DNA of 12,478 nucleotides, from the NCBI GenBank assembly GCA_014803815.1, contig JAAVAY010000027.1, positions 1 through 12,478 of the forward strand, in the 5' to 3' direction. Under the pieces are notes generated by a model. The model saw only the letters and a list, made by a program, of their open reading frames with translations, searched no databases and was not told the DNA's origin. The position numbers and the translations under genes are program-made. Positions 2,167 to 12,478 of the stretch are shown here, piece by piece (within the stretch, counting starts at the first letter, position 1; each line of letters opens with the position of its first letter). The DNA comes from Allobaculum sp. GTDB taxonomy: Bacteria > Bacillota_I > Bacilli_A > Erysipelotrichales > Erysipelotrichaceae.

Positions 2167-2202
2167 ACATTTCTCCAAAAATTCAAATAAACATAAAATA
2201 TA

Positions 2203-2219
2203 GAAAGGATGAATCCATT
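2203..2219 (+). promoter_or_regulatory. mnmE: mnmE 5' exon: Shine-Dalgarno and predicted AUU initiation codon
   Basis: AGAAAGGA (2203-2209 region) is the same Shine-Dalgarno seen before lysS and the LUD gene. In those genes the start codon comes 5-7 bases later; here that position holds ATT (2217-2219), immediately followed by the predicted intron. The ATG at 2209 directly abuts the Shine-Dalgarno with no spacer and would be out of frame with mnmE after the predicted splice. No convincing promoter was identified; a -10-like TAAAAT lies at 2194-2199, but it would start RNA too late to include the Shine-Dalgarno. Confidence 0.55.
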
Positions 2220-2683
2220 TTGTTTGATTGATCTTGACTGAAGCTGCACAGTCAAGATGGTCCACTCGCCAAGAAATTGACGAGATTGCACTGCTCGAAT
2301 TGCTGGAACACCCTAAAGCCAACTCACAACAACAACGCTTTGAAACAAAGGCCTTGTGAATGTCGCGTAAGCAGAAACAAGCAGTTGGATGCCACAATGG
2401 GCAATCAGCAGCCAAGCTTCGAAGAGAAGAAGGTTCAACGACTATCCCTCAGGGAGTAGAAATGAAGCCATTTCCAAGCGGGCAGCCCTTCGGCTTGAAT
2501 CCCTTTCTTTTTTAAGCCAAGGTGAAGATATAGTCTGTGCTTGTCTGAAAGGACAAGAAGGGAATTCCCTGCATGATCTTTGCGCCATCATGTGAACACC
2601 AAACGGAAAAAGAGATCGAAAAGAGCGATAAAGCAAGTCTTTTCAGCTTTCCATTTTTCTTTTCCTCTTTTTCTACTTAACAG
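2220..2683 (+). ncRNA. Group I self-splicing intron (IA-like), no endonuclease ORF
   Basis: About 464 bases. The conserved core elements are visible: Q-like CAATCAGCAGCC (2402-2413), R GGTTCAACGACTAT (2432-2445) and S GAAGATATAGTC (2524-2535). Helices that pair by eye: P1 2215-2222/2253-2260 with the required U2219·G2256; P2 2265-2268/2281-2284; P3 CTGCTCG 2291-2297/CGGGCAG 2479-2485; P4 2300-2305/2406-2411; P5 2311-2313/2399-2401, extended by 2319-2324/2383-2388; P7 2440-2445/2530-2535; P7.1 2446-2449/2451-2454; P7.2 2459-2464/2469-2474; P8 2492-2496/2514-2518; P9 2540-2545/2552-2557 with a GAAA loop. P9.0 (UGU 2536-2538 with ACA 2680-2682) places the terminal G at 2683. A 9-bp helix, 2606-2614/2665-2673, closes the 3' tail. 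P7.1/P7.2 hairpins point to subgroup IA, common in phages. It is inserted at the mnmE start codon. No P10 was evident. Confidence 0.9.
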
Positions 2684-4039
2684 GATACCATTGCGGCGAT
2701 TGCCACGCCGCTTGCGGCTTCGGCCATTTCCATTATTCGCCTTTCGGGTCCCGATGCTCTTTCCATTGTGGATCAGATGTGTACGCGAAATGTAGCCGAT
2801 CAAAAAAGCCATACCATTCAATATGGCTTTATTATCGATCAAGACCAAGCTTTCATCGATGAAGTCTTGATCAGTGTCTTTCGGGCACCTAAGTCCTACA
2901 CCTGTGAAGATGTAGTGGAGATCAATGCCCATGGTGGCCCCTATGTGGCTCGCCAAGTTTTACAACGTGCGCTTTCTTTAGGGGCGCGCTTAGCCAATCC
3001 AGGCGAATTTACTCAGCGCGCTTTCTTAAATGGACGCATCGATTTATCTCAAGCGGAAGCAGTTGAGGATATGATTGAAGCCTCGAATGAAGGAGCCCGT
3101 CGCCAAGCCATCGACTCCATTCGTGGCGAAATTCGCAAACTTTTAGAGCCTTTAATCGAGGAATTGATGAATCTGATCGCCAACATCGAAGTCAATGTGG
3201 ACTATCCTGAGTACGAAGATGCTGAGCAATTGACTGCCCAAACTCTCTTGCCTCGCTCTAAAGGCCTTCTTGAACAAATGGATGCGCTTTTGGCTTGCTC
3301 GAAAAAAGGGTTTGCCTTACAAGATGGCATTCAAACCGTCATCATTGGCCGCCCTAATGTGGGAAAAAGCTCACTTTTAAATGCCTTGTTGCATGAAGAA
3401 AAAGCCATTGTCACCGACATCGCTGGCACGACACGGGATTTAGTGGAGGGGCGCTTATTGGTTGGGCCTTTTGCGCTGAATTTAGTCGACACGGCGGGAA
3501 TTCGCCAAGGAGCTGATCAAATTGAACAAATCGGCATTGAAAAAAGCCGCCAATCTATGGAGAAGGCCGACTTGATTCTTTTAGTTTTGGATGGCTCTCA
3601 ACCCCTGGATTCCCAAGATTACGATTTATTGGAACAAACCAAAGATAAAAAGCGCATTGTCCTCATCAATAAGCAAGATTTACCCGAAGCGTTTTCTTTG
3701 GATTCGCTTCTCTTACAAGAAAGGGATCAAGAGCGCATCATTTCCATCAGTGCTAAAGATGGCGACATTGCTCCTTTAGAACGGGCTCTAGAAGAACTCT
3801 TTGATGCTGATGGATTTGTATGGCAACCAAGGCTTTCCAATGAACGCCAAATTGGCTTATTGCAACAAGCGCGTCAAGATTTGTTAAACGCTAAGGAAGC
3901 TATGGAGCTAGGAGTAGAGCCAGATCTTATCGAAATGGACTTACTAGCCAGCCATGACCATCTCAAAGAGATTTTAGGAGAAGTCCATCGAGATGATTTA
4001 CTCGATACCTTATTTTCCCGCTTCTGCTTGGGCAAATAA
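2684..4039 (+). CDS. mnmE: tRNA modification GTPase MnmE (coding part after the intron)
   Basis: With MnmG, MnmE installs the carboxymethylaminomethyl group on U34 of tRNAs reading split-box codons; cytoplasmic GTPase. Reading starts DTIAAIATPLAASAISIIRL, which is the canonical MnmE N-terminus minus its initiator Met; with that residue the protein is 452 aa, normal for the family. The N-terminal folate-binding domain shows IRLSGPDA, VEINAHGGPYVA and NPGEFTQRAFLNGRIDLSQAEAVEDMI. The G domain shows GRPNVGKSS (about 223-231), AGTTRD (248-253), DTAG (270-273), NKQD (330-333) and a SAK G5. The C-terminus is FCLGK, matching the CxGK rule with its catalytic Cys. In genomic DNA an in-frame TAA at 2678-2680 lies just upstream, so full-length translation needs splicing. 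The first in-frame start in unspliced RNA is GTG at 2768, which would drop conserved sequence. A weak stem (4039-4043/4050-4054 plus GATTTT) may be a terminator. Confidence 0.95.
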   Translation, partial: DTIAAIATPLAASAISIIRLSGPDALSIVDQMCTRNVADQKSHTIQYGFIIDQDQAFIDEVLISVFRAPKSYTCEDVVEINAHGGPYVARQVLQRALSLGARLANPGEFTQRAFLNGRIDLSQAEAVEDMIEASNEGARRQAIDSIRGEIRKLLEPLIEELMNLIANIEVNVDYPEYEDAEQLTAQTLLPRSKGLLEQMDALLACSKKGFALQDGIQTVIIGRPNVGKSSLLNALLHEEKAIVTDIAGTTRDLVEGRLLVGPFALNLVDTAGIRQGADQIEQIGIEKSRQSMEKADLILLVLDGSQPLDSQDYDLLEQTKDKKRIVLINKQDLPEAFSLDSLLLQERDQERIISISAKDGDIAPLERALEELFDADGFVWQPRLSNERQIGLLQQARQDLLNAKEAMELGVEPDLIEMDLLASHDHLKEILGEVHRDDLLDTLFSRFCLGK

Positions 4040-6480: not shown

Positions 6481-7926
6481 TTATTCAAGGACAGTTTGCA
6501 CATCTAAGCACAAAACCTCTTCGCCCGTCTTGACGAGAGTTTTGACGATTGTCTCTTTAGGCAAGTAATCCTTCATCAAATACACCCCATAGCCATCTTC
6601 CAAATAAAAGACGGGATAGGTGTATGTCTGCCCATTGGGCCAAGTGGTCTCAAGGTAGATCTCGCTATTTTCGGAAAGATTGGGAATGGTTCCCGAGATA
6701 TACATCCAGCCTTCAGCATCACGCAAATTTAAAATGGACGAAGTCTGAATACTGGATTCCTTAGCCGTGGCGTCTTGGCTGATTTGAGCTGTTTCTTTGA
6801 GCGCTTGTTCTTTTTCTTCCACCCCATCCGCTAAAGTGTAGGTCATATTTTGTACCACTGGCATTTTCATAATCGCAGCTTGTTCTTGAAAGGCACTCAT
6901 GCGTCGTTCGGCGCGTTCAATGATCACCCATTGCGGTTTTAAGGCCTCAATTTGGATTAAGTTGTATGGCGTTAAGCGGGAGAAGTAGCTCTTAGCAAAA
7001 TGATTGGCAAAAAAAGGAGCGAGAGCTTCACCAAAGGAATCGCGAAACATCAAAAGCATGCCCGAGCCAGCGGGATTTGAAGTTTCAATCCAGTTATCCA
7101 TGAAATCAACAATCTCATTATCCACCTGAAAGGAAAAAGCCTTGTTGTAATCGTAGTCGACTTCAGGCGTAGCGCTTTCTGGATTGAGCATAGTATCTAA
7201 ATCGGATTCATGAGTAGGCATAGGGGTGGGGGTGAAGGTGGATAAATCGTTGTGTTCAATGCCCATGGCATCCATCAAAGTATTGTAGGCCACTAAAGCC
7301 CCCTCGTTTGTCCAATGGGAATCCTTGTGGAAATATAAGGTCCGTTCATCGTTGGATAAAGGCGTTTTCAAATCCACACACGGAATCCCTCCCTGAGCTA
7401 AGGCATTCATCAAACGATCGATGTCCTTGTCTTCGGTTTCTAAGTAGCGATCTTTCATCTGTTCGGGGTAAACGGTGTTTTTGTTGGGAACAATGGTGAC
7501 CAAAAAGCGAGATCCTTGAGAAGTGATGGAGTATTGGATGAGCTGCAGGTTATGGACGATGTTGTGGATTTGGCGATCGCTCAAGCGATTGAGGCCCGTG
7601 AAGTTATCAAGGGTTTCTTGGTAAAATAACCAATCCTCCTTGCCCCGCAACACATTGCGAATGCTCGATTCGCGAAAGAGACCATTTTCCAAATCCGCAT
7701 AGGCTGTAATCAGCCAAGAGCGAAAGGCAAAGTGATCATCAAACCAATTTCCAAGCTCAGAAAGAATCTTCGCGTTGAATTGACCATTTTCCATGAGAGT
7801 AGGAAAGGCAGCGAGTTCTCGCTTTTCACTGGTTTCATCGCTTGACCAAAAGGCCATGCCCACAAGCGGAAGAAGCAAAGTAGCGATCAATACCGTGGTA
7901 AATAATTTTGGGAGTAAATTTTTCAT
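6481..7926 (-). CDS. DHHW/AlgJ-AlgX-like SGNH protein, O-acetyltransferase partner
   Basis: Likely the extracytoplasmic half of a two-protein polysaccharide O-acetylation system; MBOAT proteins pass acetyl groups across the membrane and AlgJ/AlgX-type SGNH proteins act on the polymer outside. The 481-residue protein starts with an uncleaved anchor or signal segment (about 5-27). It then has the family N-terminal block (KRELAAFP, FDDHFAFRSWL), a GKEDWLFY stretch, VPNKNTVYPE (146-155), the catalytic Asp-x-His of KDSHWTNEGA (Asp202, His204) and the nucleophile Ser297 in MFRDSFGEAL, where AlgX has GDSF. Residues about 380-481 form an extra beta-rich C-terminal region (WMYISGTIPN, YLETTWPNGQTYTYPVF). 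It starts five bases after the MBOAT stop with no visible Shine-Dalgarno, which suggests translational coupling. The substrate polymer is unknown. Confidence 0.9.
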   Translation of the reverse strand: MKNLLPKLFTTVLIATLLLPLVGMAFWSSDETSEKRELAAFPTLMENGQFNAKILSELGNWFDDHFAFRSWLITAYADLENGLFRESSIRNVLRGKEDWLFYQETLDNFTGLNRLSDRQIHNIVHNLQLIQYSITSQGSRFLVTIVPNKNTVYPEQMKDRYLETEDKDIDRLMNALAQGGIPCVDLKTPLSNDERTLYFHKDSHWTNEGALVAYNTLMDAMGIEHNDLSTFTPTPMPTHESDLDTMLNPESATPEVDYDYNKAFSFQVDNEIVDFMDNWIETSNPAGSGMLLMFRDSFGEALAPFFANHFAKSYFSRLTPYNLIQIEALKPQWVIIERAERRMSAFQEQAAIMKMPVVQNMTYTLADGVEEKEQALKETAQISQDATAKESSIQTSSILNLRDAEGWMYISGTIPNLSENSEIYLETTWPNGQTYTYPVFYLEDGYGVYLMKDYLPKETIVKTLVKTGEEVLCLDVQTVLE

Positions 7927-7931
7927 AGTAT

Positions 7932-9308
7932 TTAAAAACGGAAATAAATAAAGGGATTATAGGTTCCCGCTGAAAGCGCCAAGATGCAAACCACCAATAG
8001 TGCATAGCCACCAAGATAAGACCAGCCAACCATCGGAGACTCATCAAAGTTTACTTGTTGCCACAAAGGAGCACTGCCTACAGCAGCAGCGACTAGAGCT
8101 AGGGCTAAAACAGGGGAGCAAACCGAATACAACAAAGCCATCGAGTTCCAATCGAAGTGGAAGCCTATAAACATCTGCGTGATCATAAAGAGGCCTTGGC
8201 TAACCGTGTCGGCTCGAAACATCACAAAGCCCACAATGACAATGAGCATGGTTCCAAGCCAGCCGATGAATTTAGGCAAACGGTTGAGATGGAGCAGATC
8301 TTCAAGCACGATGAAGCAACCATGCCAAAGCCCCCATAACACAAAAGTTAAATTGGCTCCATGCCAAATGCCAGTAGCCAAAAAGACGATCAGCTTGTTC
8401 ACATAAGTGCGAATAGTTCCCTTTCGATTTCCCCCTAAAGGGATATAGAGGTATTCGCGAAACCATGTGGACAAAGAGATATGCCAGCGTCGCCAAAACT
8501 CTTGAATGGAGCATGAGATATAAGGGTAGTTGAAGTTTTGGTGAAAGTGAAAGCCAAACACTTCCCCAAGCCCAATGGCCATATCCGAATAGCCAGAGAA
8601 ATCAAAGTAGATTTGGAACAAGTAACAAAGAGCCGCCAGCCAAGCGCTGCCGATATTGATGTAGGAAGGGTTCGCCGCAAAGAGCAAATCAACGGTACTC
8701 GCCAAAGTATTGGAAATAAGTACCTTTTTTCCAAGCCCTACACAAAAACGACGAAAACCAAGAGCGGTGGTTTGGGAATCCATGGAGCGATGTTCAATTT
8801 CCACAGCGACATCGTGATACTTCACGATTGGACCCGCAATGAGCTGGGGAAAAAGGGAAATGTAGAGCATCACATGCCACAAACTTTTTTGGGCAGGCAC
8901 ATCTTGGCGATACACATCGATAACATAGCTCAAAGCCTGAAAAGTAAAAAAGGAAATTCCTACTGGCAAAGGCAAGTGGGGCAGGGCAATCGTTAAGCCA
9001 AATAAAGCATTAATCCCACTTAAGGCTAAGTCCAAATACTTAAAGACAAACAACAAGCCGATATTAATCACGATGGCGAGCCACAAGGCCCATTTTTGGG
9101 GGCCATTTTTCATGGCAAGGCCTAAAAGCCAGTTGACCAGTACGCTAAAGAGCATCAACAAGACATAATATGGTTCTCCATAGGCGTAAAAGAGGAGTGA
9201 GGCAACAATCAATAAGCCATTTTGATAGGGAATGGACTTGGAAAGTCGACTCAATAAAAACACCACGGGCAAAAATACGCATAAGAAGACCATGGAAGAA
9301 AAAACCAA
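7932..9308 (-). CDS. MBOAT O-acyltransferase (AlgI/DltB-like)
   Basis: A multi-pass membrane enzyme that moves acetyl groups to the outside for transfer to a cell-envelope polysaccharide. The 458 residues contain about ten hydrophobic segments and the family signatures LPVGISFFTFQALSYVIDVYR, PQLIAGPI, YFDFSGYSDMAIGLG, FWRRWHISLSTWFREYLYIPLGG (about 271-293) and the active-site region ATGIWHGANLTF with His316; a second His lies in GLWHG. The start is TTG at 9308: a near-perfect AAGGAGG lies seven bases upstream and the resulting N-terminus VFSSMVFLCVFLPVV matches the usual AlgI opening. The frame is open 23 codons further, but without a ribosome site or family match. It is the first gene of a three-gene operon with the DHHW partner and lipoprotein. 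No clear promoter was identified in 9309-9476. Confidence 0.95.
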   Translation of the reverse strand: MVFSSMVFLCVFLPVVFLLSRLSKSIPYQNGLLIVASLLFYAYGEPYYVLLMLFSVLVNWLLGLAMKNGPQKWALWLAIVINIGLLFVFKYLDLALSGINALFGLTIALPHLPLPVGISFFTFQALSYVIDVYRQDVPAQKSLWHVMLYISLFPQLIAGPIVKYHDVAVEIEHRSMDSQTTALGFRRFCVGLGKKVLISNTLASTVDLLFAANPSYINIGSAWLAALCYLFQIYFDFSGYSDMAIGLGEVFGFHFHQNFNYPYISCSIQEFWRRWHISLSTWFREYLYIPLGGNRKGTIRTYVNKLIVFLATGIWHGANLTFVLWGLWHGCFIVLEDLLHLNRLPKFIGWLGTMLIVIVGFVMFRADTVSQGLFMITQMFIGFHFDWNSMALLYSVCSPVLALALVAAAVGSAPLWQQVNFDESPMVGWSYLGGYALLVVCILALSAGTYNPFIYFRF

Positions 9309-9476
9309 GCAAAATCCTCCTTTCCAAGAGCATGGAGCAAACAAGGCTTGGACTTGTTTTGCCAACGCTATGCCCATATTTTGGCAATAGCTGTCCCTAT
9401 TTTACTCACAAAGACTTTACCAAATACAGGAGAAATCACCTAAGCCTTACGCATTTTGTTTTAAGAAAGGAAGGAT

Positions 9477-9519: not shown

Positions 9520-11109
9520 TTAATAGTGATAGCTTTCGACAGTGTAGACGAAAGTAGGACGCTCTTTGGGTTGCATGTAGCAAAGATCGGCTTTAAAGCC
9601 TTGGGCAAAGCTACCATCAAAGATGTACCACTTGCCATCGATATTAAGCTCAGCCCAACCGTGTTCTTCTTGGCCATTGACCGTTTTCACCGTTCCTTTA
9701 GCCAAGCGCCCTTCATAGCCTAAATTGCGGGCCAATGATAAAAACGTCGAGGCAAAGGTATAACAGTTTCCCGTATGGCTTTCTAAGCCATATAGAGCAA
9801 AGTTTTGTACGTGGGTACGCCCTTCTGGTGGAGTGCGCCATTGGGGATTAAAGGCTTTGTAGACGATGGTTTGATACGTCCAATCAAAGCAATTTCTTAA
9901 ATCCTTCCCCACCAAATCATACACGTCGTAGCAATCGAGCATGATTCGCTCATCTACAGAGAGGGTTTGTTTTTCTCCATCAGGGCCATAGCTTACGCCA
10001 TCAACCGTGCAATCTTTAAGCATCGCCCCATCATCACCAAAGCAAACAATACTATTTTTATCTTTGCCACTTTCCTCTTTACTCAAAACCATAGAACCAA
10101 TTTTGGCTTCTCCAGTTTTGGGATCGAGGTAGTAGGTTTTGCCTTCATATTCAGTCCATCCGGTCAATTTTTGACCTTGGGTATCGAGAATATAAATCTT
10201 ATCTCCCTCTTGGACCAAACCAGTAAGAGTCGTCAAATACCCATCATCATCTAAAAGATAGGCATCGCCCTCGATCGTTTGAAGACCCGTTAAAGGTTCA
10301 AGCGTTTCGATATTCATGTATTGAATTCCTCTATCGGTTTGGACTTTGGAGTAAGGGGTTAAGCCATACCAGCCAATTTTTTCATCAAGCCATCCCCCAC
10401 CAGTGAGGTGGTTCGCTTCAGTTTGGGATACGGTATAGTTATGGTTACGAATATAGTCGTTGGGATTGTATTGACGATACACCGCACTAGCATTCACTTC
10501 ATCCCCATCAAAGGATTTCCAGCCAATCCCCTCATCTTTCCAACCCGCTTTGACAAGGGCATCGCGTTCAGCGGTATCGGTAGTGTAGTGGTGGTCACCT
10601 TCGGGATTGTATAAGCGATAGACATCTAGACCACTATGGATTGGAGCATACCAACCAATTCCTTCATCTTTCCAGCCTTCTTCCACTAATTGATCGCGTT
10701 CTTCTTGGCTAGCCGTATAAAAATGCTCGCCTGAACTTTTGTTATAAAGGCGATACATGGGAGTCATCTCAAAGGTTTCTAAGATTTGATCGACTTGATC
10801 CATCTTGGCTTTGAGTTGCTCTTTTTCGCTTTCAGAAGCCTTAGCGTATTGATCGGCTAACTCTTTGGCATACACTTTCCATTCGTAAATGGTGCCAGTG
10901 CCTGGTGTTTCTAGATTTGTCGCCTTTTGGCTGGTTTCCATTTCTTCAATGGACGTTTCTACACCATTAAGAGTGCTTTCTTGTAGGCTAGTCTGACTGG
11001 TTTCATCTTCCATTTCCTGCGCCAAAAGGGGCATAGAAAAAGCGGAAAGAGACATGGAGCTAGCGGCTAAGGCAAGAAGCATCTTTTTATAAAAAGGATA
11101 TGTGTTCAT
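9520..11109 (-). CDS. Secreted protein: DUF5648 repeats, cell-wall-binding repeats, transglutaminase-like domain
   Basis: A predicted exported wall-associated protein of 529 residues whose C-terminal domain is a papain-like transglutaminase fold (protease, crosslinker or amidase role cannot be told apart). Signal peptide 1-30, with cleavage near PLLAQE. An acidic/helical spacer (31-115) follows. Three DUF5648-type repeats, each ending in GW.DEGIGW or a variant, cover about 118-155, 164-198 and 210-248 (YRLYN...HFYT, YRLYNPEGDHHYTT, YRQYNPND...HNYT). Choline/cell-wall-binding-like repeats cover about 262-345 (LTGWTEYEGKTYYLDPKTGEA). The transglutaminase core at 388-529 has Cys449 in GNCYTFASTF, His483 in EEHGWAEL and Asp498 in YIFDGSF, a complete triad. 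The ATG at 11109 has AAGAGG upstream. A long leader with a possible attenuator precedes it. It is a tandem paralogue of the gene at 11687-12478. Confidence 0.92.
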   Translation of the reverse strand: MNTYPFYKKMLLALAASSMSLSAFSMPLLAQEMEDETSQTSLQESTLNGVETSIEEMETSQKATNLETPGTGTIYEWKVYAKELADQYAKASESEKEQLKAKMDQVDQILETFEMTPMYRLYNKSSGEHFYTASQEERDQLVEEGWKDEGIGWYAPIHSGLDVYRLYNPEGDHHYTTDTAERDALVKAGWKDEGIGWKSFDGDEVNASAVYRQYNPNDYIRNHNYTVSQTEANHLTGGGWLDEKIGWYGLTPYSKVQTDRGIQYMNIETLEPLTGLQTIEGDAYLLDDDGYLTTLTGLVQEGDKIYILDTQGQKLTGWTEYEGKTYYLDPKTGEAKIGSMVLSKEESGKDKNSIVCFGDDGAMLKDCTVDGVSYGPDGEKQTLSVDERIMLDCYDVYDLVGKDLRNCFDWTYQTIVYKAFNPQWRTPPEGRTHVQNFALYGLESHTGNCYTFASTFLSLARNLGYEGRLAKGTVKTVNGQEEHGWAELNIDGKWYIFDGSFAQGFKADLCYMQPKERPTFVYTVESYHY

Positions 11110-11160
11110 AAGGACCTCTTTTTTCTAAATATGAAACTTCAAGTCATGGAATTACCAAAC

Positions 11161-11190
11161 AATAAAAAGGCCACATCAAAAGATGTTGGC
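11161..11190 (-). terminator. Intrinsic terminator inside the leader of the transglutaminase gene
   Basis: On the minus strand GCCAACATC pairs with GATGTGGC (ACATC/GATGT plus GCC/GGC around one bulged A) over a TTTT loop, followed by CTTTTTATT. It lies upstream of the start codon on the same strand, which is expected of a premature terminator rather than an end-of-gene one. Confidence 0.65.
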
Positions 11191-11280
11191 AAAATATTGA
11201 ATGGCATTGATATTGCTTGCCTAGCCGTTCGGCTCAAGCAAACGAGAATATTCAGAATCTCGAAAATTCGGTTTCTGACT
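11161..11280 (-). promoter_or_regulatory. Leader with terminator/antiterminator layout (candidate riboswitch or attenuator)
   Basis: On the minus strand, downstream of a promoter, come: hairpin A TCAGAA/TTCTGA (11278-11273/11257-11252) with an inner CGAA/TTCG; hairpin B TTGCTTG/CAAGCAA (11241-11235/11219-11213) capped by AGCCG/CGGCT; and an intrinsic terminator. An alternative helix pairs GGCAA (11221-11217) and AATAT with ATATT and TTGCC (ending 11188). It shares bases with both hairpin B and the terminator's 5' arm, so it is exclusive with both. The leader lies about 50 bases upstream of the gene's Shine-Dalgarno. I recognise no known riboswitch class or T-box signature in it. Confidence 0.5.
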
Positions 11281-11286
11281 CAAAGA

Positions 11287-11315
11287 ATTTTAACAGTCAA
11301 GCGCTCTGCTCACAA
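11287..11315 (-). promoter_or_regulatory. Probable sigma-A promoter of the DUF5648/transglutaminase gene
   Basis: On the minus strand TTGTGA (11315-11310), a 17-base spacer and TAAAAT (11292-11287). The very A/T-rich stretch upstream (about 11340-11400) could act as an UP element. Transcription would start near 11280, giving a leader of about 170 bases. Confidence 0.6.
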
Positions 11316-11635
11316 GAAAATTTTAATAAAAAGTTGAATCTTACAACAAAAATTTAAAATTTTTTGAAAAATCACAAAAAATTGGAAAAAATTTAGAATT
11401 TATGCCAGATTTATCGAGAAAAAATAAGGAACGTTTTCTAGTTCTAGGCTAATCAAAAGACAAATTTCTTTGACTGGTGAAAAAAACGAAAAGGCATAAG
11501 GCCAGTCTTTCCTTTTATTTATATTACTTTATCCATAAAAAAGACGAAAACGTTTGAGTAAAAAGTCGGACACTTTTTATAGGCAAGAAACAATGGAGGA
11601 TAGGATAAAGAAAAATTCCTAAGATGGCCAAAAGA
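11316..11635. other. A/T-rich intergenic stretch without a gene
   Basis: No credible coding sequence on either strand. Small inverted repeats are visible: AAAAAGT/ACTTTTT at 11560-11578 (7-bp stem, CGGAC loop, able to fold on both strands) and GACTGG/CCAGTC near 11471-11505 with a long loop. 11340-11400 is almost all A and T. These may be leftover terminators or promoter-proximal sequence; no function is supported. Confidence 0.5.
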
Positions 11636-11671
11636 CGCAAAAAAGGACTATAGCTTGAGCTACAGTCCTTT
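11636..11671 (-). terminator. Rho-independent terminator after the partial DUF5648 gene
   Basis: On the minus strand AAAGGACT (11671-11664) pairs with AGTCCTTT (11649-11642), with TAGCT/AGCTA continuing the stem inside, followed by a run of Ts. It lies 15 bases after the stop codon, so the two paralogous genes are transcribed separately. Confidence 0.93.
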
Positions 11672-11686
11672 AAAGGCTTCAAGGAA

Positions 11687-12478
11687 TTAGCGATGAGCTT
11701 CTAACCACGCTTCTTGCTCTTCATCAAGATTTACTAAATCACCATTCGCATCAAATTCATGACCATCAACGGTAGTATTGCGTAACAAGCGTCCAAATTG
11801 GTCAAAACCGACAATGCGGGCTCGTTGACCATCTTGTTCTTTAGTGAGCTTTTGAATACCTGTTAAGGCTACAAACGTCTTGCGATCAAAGTAATAGGTA
11901 TGATCATCGTACTTTTGCCATCCCGATAGGCGCTCTCCATCCTCACTACATAAGATAAATTCACCGTTTAAGAAGGCGAGTCCCTTTAACATTTCTCCAT
12001 TCGATTTAGGTAACAAATAGTAACGAACACCACAAATCGTTTGATCTCCAGTTAAAGGCTCCATGGTGTGGGTGTCATAAAAATAAGTAGAACCATTGGC
12101 GTTAACCACTTTAGAATAAGGAGCTACGCCATACCAACCGATTTCTTCATCTTTCCAACCCAATTGAATCAACGACTTCATTTCGCTTACTGACATAGTG
12201 TAATTGTGGTTGCAAATTTTCTCGTTGGGATTGTATTGGCGATACACAGGAGCCGCATTGACTCCATCTTGTTTGCTTAAGGTTTTCCAGCCTACGCCTT
12301 CATAGACCCAACCGTATTTCACAAGCGCATCTCGCTCTTCTTTAGAAGTCGTATAGTGATGATCTCCTTCGGGATTGAATAAACGGTAGACAGGATCGCC
12401 TTCCGCTGGAGCATACCAGCCAATTCCCTCATTTTTCCAGCCATCTTCAATGAGTTGCGTCCGTTCAGATTCGCTTCC
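11687..12478 (-). CDS. DUF5648-repeat, cell-wall-binding-repeat protein (N-terminus beyond the right edge)
   Basis: The C-terminal 263 residues of a likely secreted surface protein; reading is open to the right edge, so signal peptide and further repeats should lie outside. The first 23 residues end a DUF5648 repeat (GWKNEGIGWYAP). Complete repeats follow at about 31-67 (YRLFNPEGDHHYTT...GW) and 78-117 (YRQYNPNE...HNYT...GWKDEEIGWYG). Then come cell-wall-binding-like repeats (about 120-205; LSGWQKYDDHTYYFDRKT) and a short tail ending LEEQEAWLEAHR-like. It aligns along its length with the neighbouring gene, but stops where that gene's transglutaminase domain begins. It is a paralogue without the enzymatic domain. 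Its own terminator follows the stop codon. Confidence 0.9.
   Translation of the reverse strand, partial: GSESERTQLIEDGWKNEGIGWYAPAEGDPVYRLFNPEGDHHYTTSKEERDALVKYGWVYEGVGWKTLSKQDGVNAAPVYRQYNPNEKICNHNYTMSVSEMKSLIQLGWKDEEIGWYGVAPYSKVVNANGSTYFYDTHTMEPLTGDQTICGVRYYLLPKSNGEMLKGLAFLNGEFILCSEDGERLSGWQKYDDHTYYFDRKTFVALTGIQKLTKEQDGQRARIVGFDQFGRLLRNTTVDGHEFDANGDLVNLDEEQEAWLEAHR

Follow-up and report, generated by a model that had tools for sequence, protein, structure and literature searches.

A probable ORF-less group I intron early in the coding sequence of a bacterial mnmE gene

How can a full-length MnmE be made from a gene whose reading frame is broken almost at its start? In the 12,478-nt stretch of Allobaculum DNA analysed here (the window), mnmE lies on the plus strand and diverges from a minus-strand gene of the Sua5/YrdC type (tsaC-like); by inspection only ~53 nt separate the start of that gene from a TTG at 2220. 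A plain ORF finder places the mnmE start far downstream, at GTG 2768. The nearest named relatives are Erysipelotrichaceae: the window MnmE is ~72% identical to that of strain RD49, and its best match reached 73% across 272 family genomes and 72% in a scan of genome contigs. Of these 272 genomes, 270 yielded a match of the MnmE type, some of them weak and perhaps to other GTPases. A preliminary description had placed a group I intron at the 5′ end of mnmE, which the Rfam match and covariation given below bear out. From observed structure, covariation, empty sites and reading frame, we consider it very likely that mnmE is interrupted between codons 3 and 4 by a group I intron that is IA2-like, lacks ORFs and is kin to the intron part of IStrons, and that its splicing yields a protein beginning MFDDTIAAI (Table 1).

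Table 1. Features of the mnmE locus and of the predicted intron (window coordinates)
Feature	Position	Strand	Basis
Sua5/YrdC (tsaC-like) gene, bounds the mnmE leader	1558–2166	−	PF01300; ATG start by inspection
Shine–Dalgarno AGAAAGGA of mnmE	2202–2209	+	Sequence; 10 nt upstream of TTG start
Exon 1 coding part, TTG TTT GAT (M-F-D)	2220–2228	+	Versus L001 ATG TTT GAT, 8/9 bases
P1, exon GAU 2226–2228 with IGS GUC 2260–2262, U2228·G2260 wobble	2226–2262	+	
Group I intron (IA type), 455 nt, final base omega-G	2229–2683	+	Rfam, covariation, junction comparison
P1 extension, perfect 10 bp	2231–2240/2249–2258	+	
P2 with GAAA loop	2265–2284	+	Inspection
P3	2291–2297/2479–2485	+	Covariation
P4	2301–2306/2405–2410	+	
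P5	2311–2313/2399–2401	+	
P6a	2417–2420/2426–2429	+	
P7, guanosine site (predicted)	2440–2444/2531–2535	+	Invariant
P7.1	2446–2448/2452–2454	+	
P7.2	2459–2464/2469–2474	+	Covariation
P8	2487–2522	+	
P9.0, 5′ strand UGU with ACA beside omega-G 2683	2536–2538/2680–2682	+	Inspection
P9	2540–2546/2551–2557	+	Covariation
P9.1	2560–2569	+	Inspection
P9.2	2571–2577/2587–2593	+	Inspection
GAACAC motif; the IS part of IStrons comes after such a motif	2594–2599	+	Motif list in the available text of PMC4227781
Terminal stem, 26 bp (16 A-U, 7 G-C, 3 G-U)	2605–2674	+	Fold
Exon 2, remainder of mnmE, 451 codons and stop	2684–4039	+	TIGR00450, 415.5 bits; TrmE_N from residue 2

A covarying group I core

The covariance-model check proposed in the preliminary description gave a match above the gathering cut-off: RF00028 aligned completely (model positions 1–253) to 2185–2557, scoring 82.8 bits where the cut-off is 50 (E = 2.8e-20), the sole Rfam match in the window at gathering level. 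A permissive scan of 2100–2800 (E ≤ 1) added only MIR815, whose 19.7 bits fall well short of its cut-off, 63. We aligned the core by plain MAFFT with six relatives (L010, L011, L013, L019, L053 and L056) picked because their core ends, as in the window, in a GTGAAC motif; the alignment left aside three further delimited introns (L052, L066 and L072) and all other RF00028 loci. Across 41 core pairs in the seven introns, 99.3% of 282 cells were paired, versus 31–47% for slid controls of the core helices, a comparison that favours the window's own structure because the helices were derived from its sequence. Two-sided changes occurred at 21 of the 41 pairs (47 cells); the observed covariation score was reached in none of 500 shuffles and the pair-type count in one. 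The signal lies mostly in P7.2 (all six pairs, one of them in just two sequences), P9 and P3 (four of seven pairs), whereas P7 is invariant among the seven introns and is therefore neutral evidence.

The locus shows three features expected of a group I intron: a P3/P7 pseudoknotted core with covariation and, as predictions, a U2228·G2260 wobble where exon 1 meets the intron and omega-G 2683 at the 3′ end. A local fold finds the GAU–GUC pairing of P1 unaided, and the fold of 2594–2683 has z = −3.29. The whole-sequence fold is unexceptional (z = −1.63; 5 of 100 shuffles equally low), as expected of a pseudoknotted ribozyme, and was kept out of the evidence. Between 2311 and 2401, ~25–30 nt of the P5 extension (the GGTTAAATCCTAAGTG region) are missing relative to the six aligned introns.

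Splice junctions and the making of MnmE

Intronless relatives point to the insertion site. In L001, the closest named one, mnmE starts AGAAAGGATCCCC ATG TTT GAT GAT ACC, and in L002 AGAAAGGAGCGATTTT GTG TTT CAT GAT ACG; both carry the AGAAAGGA Shine–Dalgarno. The window reads AGAAAGGATGAATCCATT TTG TTT GAT, then TGATCTTG...TTAACAG, then GAT ACC ATT. Joining 2228 to 2684 gives LFDDTIAAI, or MFDDTIAAI with TTG read as Met, and agrees with L001 in exon 1 at 8 of 9 bases and in exon 2 at 26 of the first 30. A search of related genomes for mnmE alleles free of the insert, suggested in the preliminary description, found an empty site at 8 of 8 loci in a first comparison; in a second, all 19 distinct loci scored have a start codon, ATG or GTG, that precedes the junction by two or three codons (the 19 come from 38 rows, of which 16 on the opposite strand were unscored and 3 were repeats). 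Of 20 junction pairs that preserve the frame, 2228/2684 is the one to give the M-F-D-D-T start of L001; P9.0 (UGU/ACA, inspection) ends directly at omega-G 2683. Together with the P1 pairing and the reading frame, the empty sites place the intron at 2229–2683, between codons 3 and 4. The preliminary description needs correction here: it had put the insertion at the initiation codon, three codons off, between Shine–Dalgarno and coding sequence, and had made it 464 bases rather than 455. Because the L001 comparison sets the start at TTG 2220 and the junction follows codon 3, the splice site lies inside the coding sequence.

Other boundaries were considered, and two were rejected. The earlier start, ATG 2209, overlaps the Shine–Dalgarno and gives a product unlike those of relatives, most of which start M-F; taking the Rfam start, 2185, as the 5′ end would set P1 on the leader, where it pairs poorly. 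On sequence grounds, a 2229/2684 junction, GATT|ATACC (MFDYTIAA), is possible and would fit P1 nearly as well, and the local fold also pairs U2229 with G2259. TTGAT is present twice in tandem (TTTGATTGAT), and a 2232/2683 junction after the second copy, giving MNPFCLIDDTIAA from ATG 2209, is likewise possible; there, U2232 faces A2257, so no U·G pair forms, and ATG 2209 sits in the Shine–Dalgarno. Also counting against our own reading are a P10 of only ~2 bp (inspection), the shortened P5 extension, a long Shine–Dalgarno spacing (10 nt) and a TTG start where relatives use the stronger ATG or GTG.

Read on in the frame of exon 1, the intron opens with TGA (2229–2231), so unspliced RNA would be read as M-F-D-stop; the available text of PMC3984707 reports that many such introns carry a stop in the frame of the upstream exon. 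In the exon 2 frame, the TAA at 2678–2680 noted earlier is present, and the first possible start after it (ATG, GTG or TTG) is GTG 2768. Because of these two stops, the lack of a start before GTG 2768 and a TrmE_N domain running from exon 2 residue 2, full MnmE needs splicing, and the earlier claim to that effect is supported by the stops and the domain position.

We infer self-splicing, by the following chemistry. The intron RNA would fold and bind guanosine in P7; cleavage would follow U2228, wobble-paired with G2260, and exon 1 would be joined to exon 2 behind omega-G 2683 to give TTG TTT GAT GAT ACC. The UGA opening the intron would halt translation of unspliced RNA at three codons and should bar ribosomes from the core. 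The intron is real and probably active. Its decay, with splicing lost and mnmE either broken or translated from an internal GTG 2768 or ATG 2777, seems highly unlikely to us: the P5 extension is partly gone, the ORF finder chooses GTG 2768 and two sister proteins (below) are called from internal starts, but P3, P4, P5, P6a, P7, P7.1, P7.2 and P9 are all formed, exon 1 keeps M-F-D in frame and an internal start would remove ~30 residues of TrmE_N. The 82.8-bit score also exceeds those of all 15 order-level places listed (best 79); in the class list, three reach 82.7–89.

Kind of intron and relationship to IStrons

P7.1, P7.2 and an extended P9 (P9.0, P9.1 and P9.2) reproduce the IA2 layout given in the available text of PMC4227781 and point to a predicted subgroup IA2 assignment, made against that description. 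According to the same text, IStron introns are IA2; group A IStrons insert after TTGAT, ATTAT or TTTAT and end in TCAG, and the bases flanking IStrons on the 3′ side vary greatly. Their IS part follows a GAAC-type motif and is bordered by repeats forming a stem-loop of 6–10 bp in group A and 15–34 bp in group B, and BcISt1 is the only ORF-less IStron named there. The mnmE intron shares with group A IStrons (CdISt1 type) and BcISt1 the IA2 layout with P7.1, P7.2 and P9.0–P9.2, a GAAC-type motif followed by a stem-loop and an in-frame intragenic insertion, and with group A a TTGAT-type left flank, TTTGAT preceding 2229. It lacks ORFs like the group B BcISt1 copies of emetic Bacillus cereus, which are vertically inherited. 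Unlike IStrons as described there, it has no IS genes, ends AACAG (TTAACAG) rather than in the group A TCAG and sits at mnmE codon 3. Its 26-bp stem is nearer the group B length, yet only 16 of the 26 pairs are A-U. Like the stand-alone IA2 introns of Fusobacterium and Turicibacter in that source it has no IS, and it shares a TTGAT neighbour with the Fusobacterium intron, but unlike either it has a terminal stem-loop.

Five ORFs of at least 60 aa overlap the intron, the tsaC-like minus-strand frame, which runs into it, being set aside. None matched Pfam or PHROGs, so reading them as endonuclease or transposase remnants was rejected; the earlier statement that no homing endonuclease is encoded agrees with this, none being recognised among the five.

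A GTGAAC motif also occurs in L019 and L053, where no IS is seen nearby, so the motif is not IStron-specific. Because of this, the AACAG end and the absence of a recognisable transposase, we file the intron as IStron-related and ORF-less rather than as a group A IStron; the TTTGAT flank, GAACAC motif, 26-bp stem and structure together suggest that it is an IA2 intron akin to IStrons but free of ORFs. It would have arisen when an IStron-like element, or an intron closely related to one, inserted here, and today has no recognisable mobility gene. That it is instead a genuine group A IStron now without ORFs, descended from an IS200/IS605 insertion whose tnpA and tnpB were lost, and not a sister intron that always lacked these genes, is a serious possibility, though we lean against it. 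The left flank, the motif, a terminal stem at the IS position and an intron followed by IS200-like TnpA and IS605 OrfB in a same-family genome (L013) speak for such an origin. Against it stand the AACAG end, a 26-bp stem where group A has 6–10 bp, the non-specific motif and an exon 2 side, GATAC, common to L019 although IStron 3′ flanks vary highly; moreover, the available text of PMC4227781 judges the Fusobacterium intron beside TTGAT a distinct element.

The L019 intron (440–1000, genome G177) is related, ORF-less and, with exon 1 set by inspection, follows codon 10 of a HAD hydrolase gene, identified by a Pfam match of its downstream part. Its junction, TTTTGAT|...ACAG|GATACG, is the same, with exon flanks nearly identical to those at the mnmE site, and by inspection it reads D-F-D-D-T. 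A GATAC right side in the unrelated mnmE and HAD genes exceeds the IStron target rule, an observation from one case. Other loci were recorded alongside. L010, also in G177 and on the minus strand, holds an RF00028 intron (79 bits) adjoining an exon for DNA gyrase/topoisomerase IV subunit A (PF00521). L013 1450–3348 (genome G065) is IStron-like, from the same family as Erysipelotrichaceae RD49, a family absent from the 2014 IStron table in the available text of PMC4227781. L053, on Enterococcus lactis plasmid pMElacP1, has an ORF-less related intron beside a sufB-like fragment, at a site with no gene in the record's table, which is itself incomplete.

Distribution, a sister clade and possible regulation

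Among the genomes of the first relatives, RF00028 (E ≤ 0.001) was found in none of seven. At the same threshold it occurred in 9 of 272 family, 12 of 315 order and 16 of 395 class genomes, overlapping sets searched with stricter filters that lose weak matches. MnmE flanked none of 35 intron loci fetched from related genomes, and mnmE and the intron lie on separate contigs in eight of the nine family genomes with a match, namely all those with a listed mnmE place (all but G186). Short stretches of core DNA match 37 phage records (for example, Enterocloster phages at 86–89% over 63–77 nt) and 25 plasmid records, 23 of them from Enterococcus; no phage or plasmid record spans 80% of the intron.

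The MnmE proteins themselves offer a further view. In a tree of 29 of the best 120 clusters (378 gap-free columns), the window protein (P0001) and the four closest MnmE among the matches listed (P0002–P0005; 82–96% identical to it over those columns) form one clade with support 1.0. An M-x-x-x-TI start is found in 113 of the best 120 of 7,002 MnmE clusters, including 112 of the 115 outside this clade (P0016, P0030 and P0037 have longer or different starts). Within it, the annotated start of P0003 and of P0005 is internal, so that both lack the N terminus, P0004 begins MAFFFQ-DTIAA and P0002, counted among the 113, begins MLQ-DTIAA. The Q before D in the latter two is what CAG|GAT at an intron end would encode; P0002 is ambiguous, because MLQDT also starts the intronless gene L047. 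Protein sequences alone thus hint, short of proof, that the intron or another interruption may be common to the sister clade. If so, a group I intron free of mobility genes would have been retained over a genus-like divergence. A single entry into mnmE before the clade split (MnmE down to 82%), followed by loss of mobility and retention as a codon-3 ribozyme gate, strikes us as improbable; were it true, all MnmE of the clade would be splicing-dependent, tying tRNA wobble modification to free guanosine/GTP or ribosome traffic.

The preliminary description had also cast splicing as a control step. A regulatory intron, its efficiency tuned by guanosine/GTP, temperature or an unseen ligand so as to gate MnmE, is in our judgement unlikely. 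Full MnmE depends on splicing, and the missing or odd N termini of three of the four sister proteins (the fourth being ambiguous) hint that an intron devoid of mobility genes has long been kept. Against this, dependence on splicing by itself holds for any intron within a coding gene. No Rfam aptamer appeared in the window scan or at 2100–2800 (E ≤ 1), and the leader is just ~53 nt long. Sequestration of the Shine–Dalgarno by the P8 loop was rejected: the 8-base complementarity, including G-U, was reached in 457 of 1,000 shuffles and is chance. The control claim is therefore unsupported, and constitutive splicing is our default reading. As in the Clostridioides difficile c-di-GMP riboswitch/group I intron described in the available text of PMC3984707, splicing decides whether an ORF is translated; unlike there, no aptamer was found, the splice site lies within coding sequence and no alternative 5′ site was seen.

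This kind of group I intron is already known; the host gene mnmE and the early position are unusual. It resembles the introns of recA, nrdE and flagellin genes in the available text of PMC3984707 in being a group I intron in a bacterial chromosomal protein gene, and differs in host gene, mnmE, and in position, codon 3. No earlier report of mnmE/trmE as a group I intron site was found in open-access literature searched by title and the start of the abstract. A tRNA-modification gene, interrupted unusually early, thereby joins the bacterial chromosomal protein genes in which group I introns are known. There is also an annotation pitfall, in that gene callers start mnmE within exon 2 or, probably, at intron codons.

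Elsewhere in the window, the minus strand carries two adjacent proteins with DUF5648 and choline-binding repeats, one with a transglutaminase core (9520–12322), and a pair of an AlgX-like SGNH protein and an MBOAT acyltransferase (6481–9377), a pairing known from polymer O-acetylation systems.
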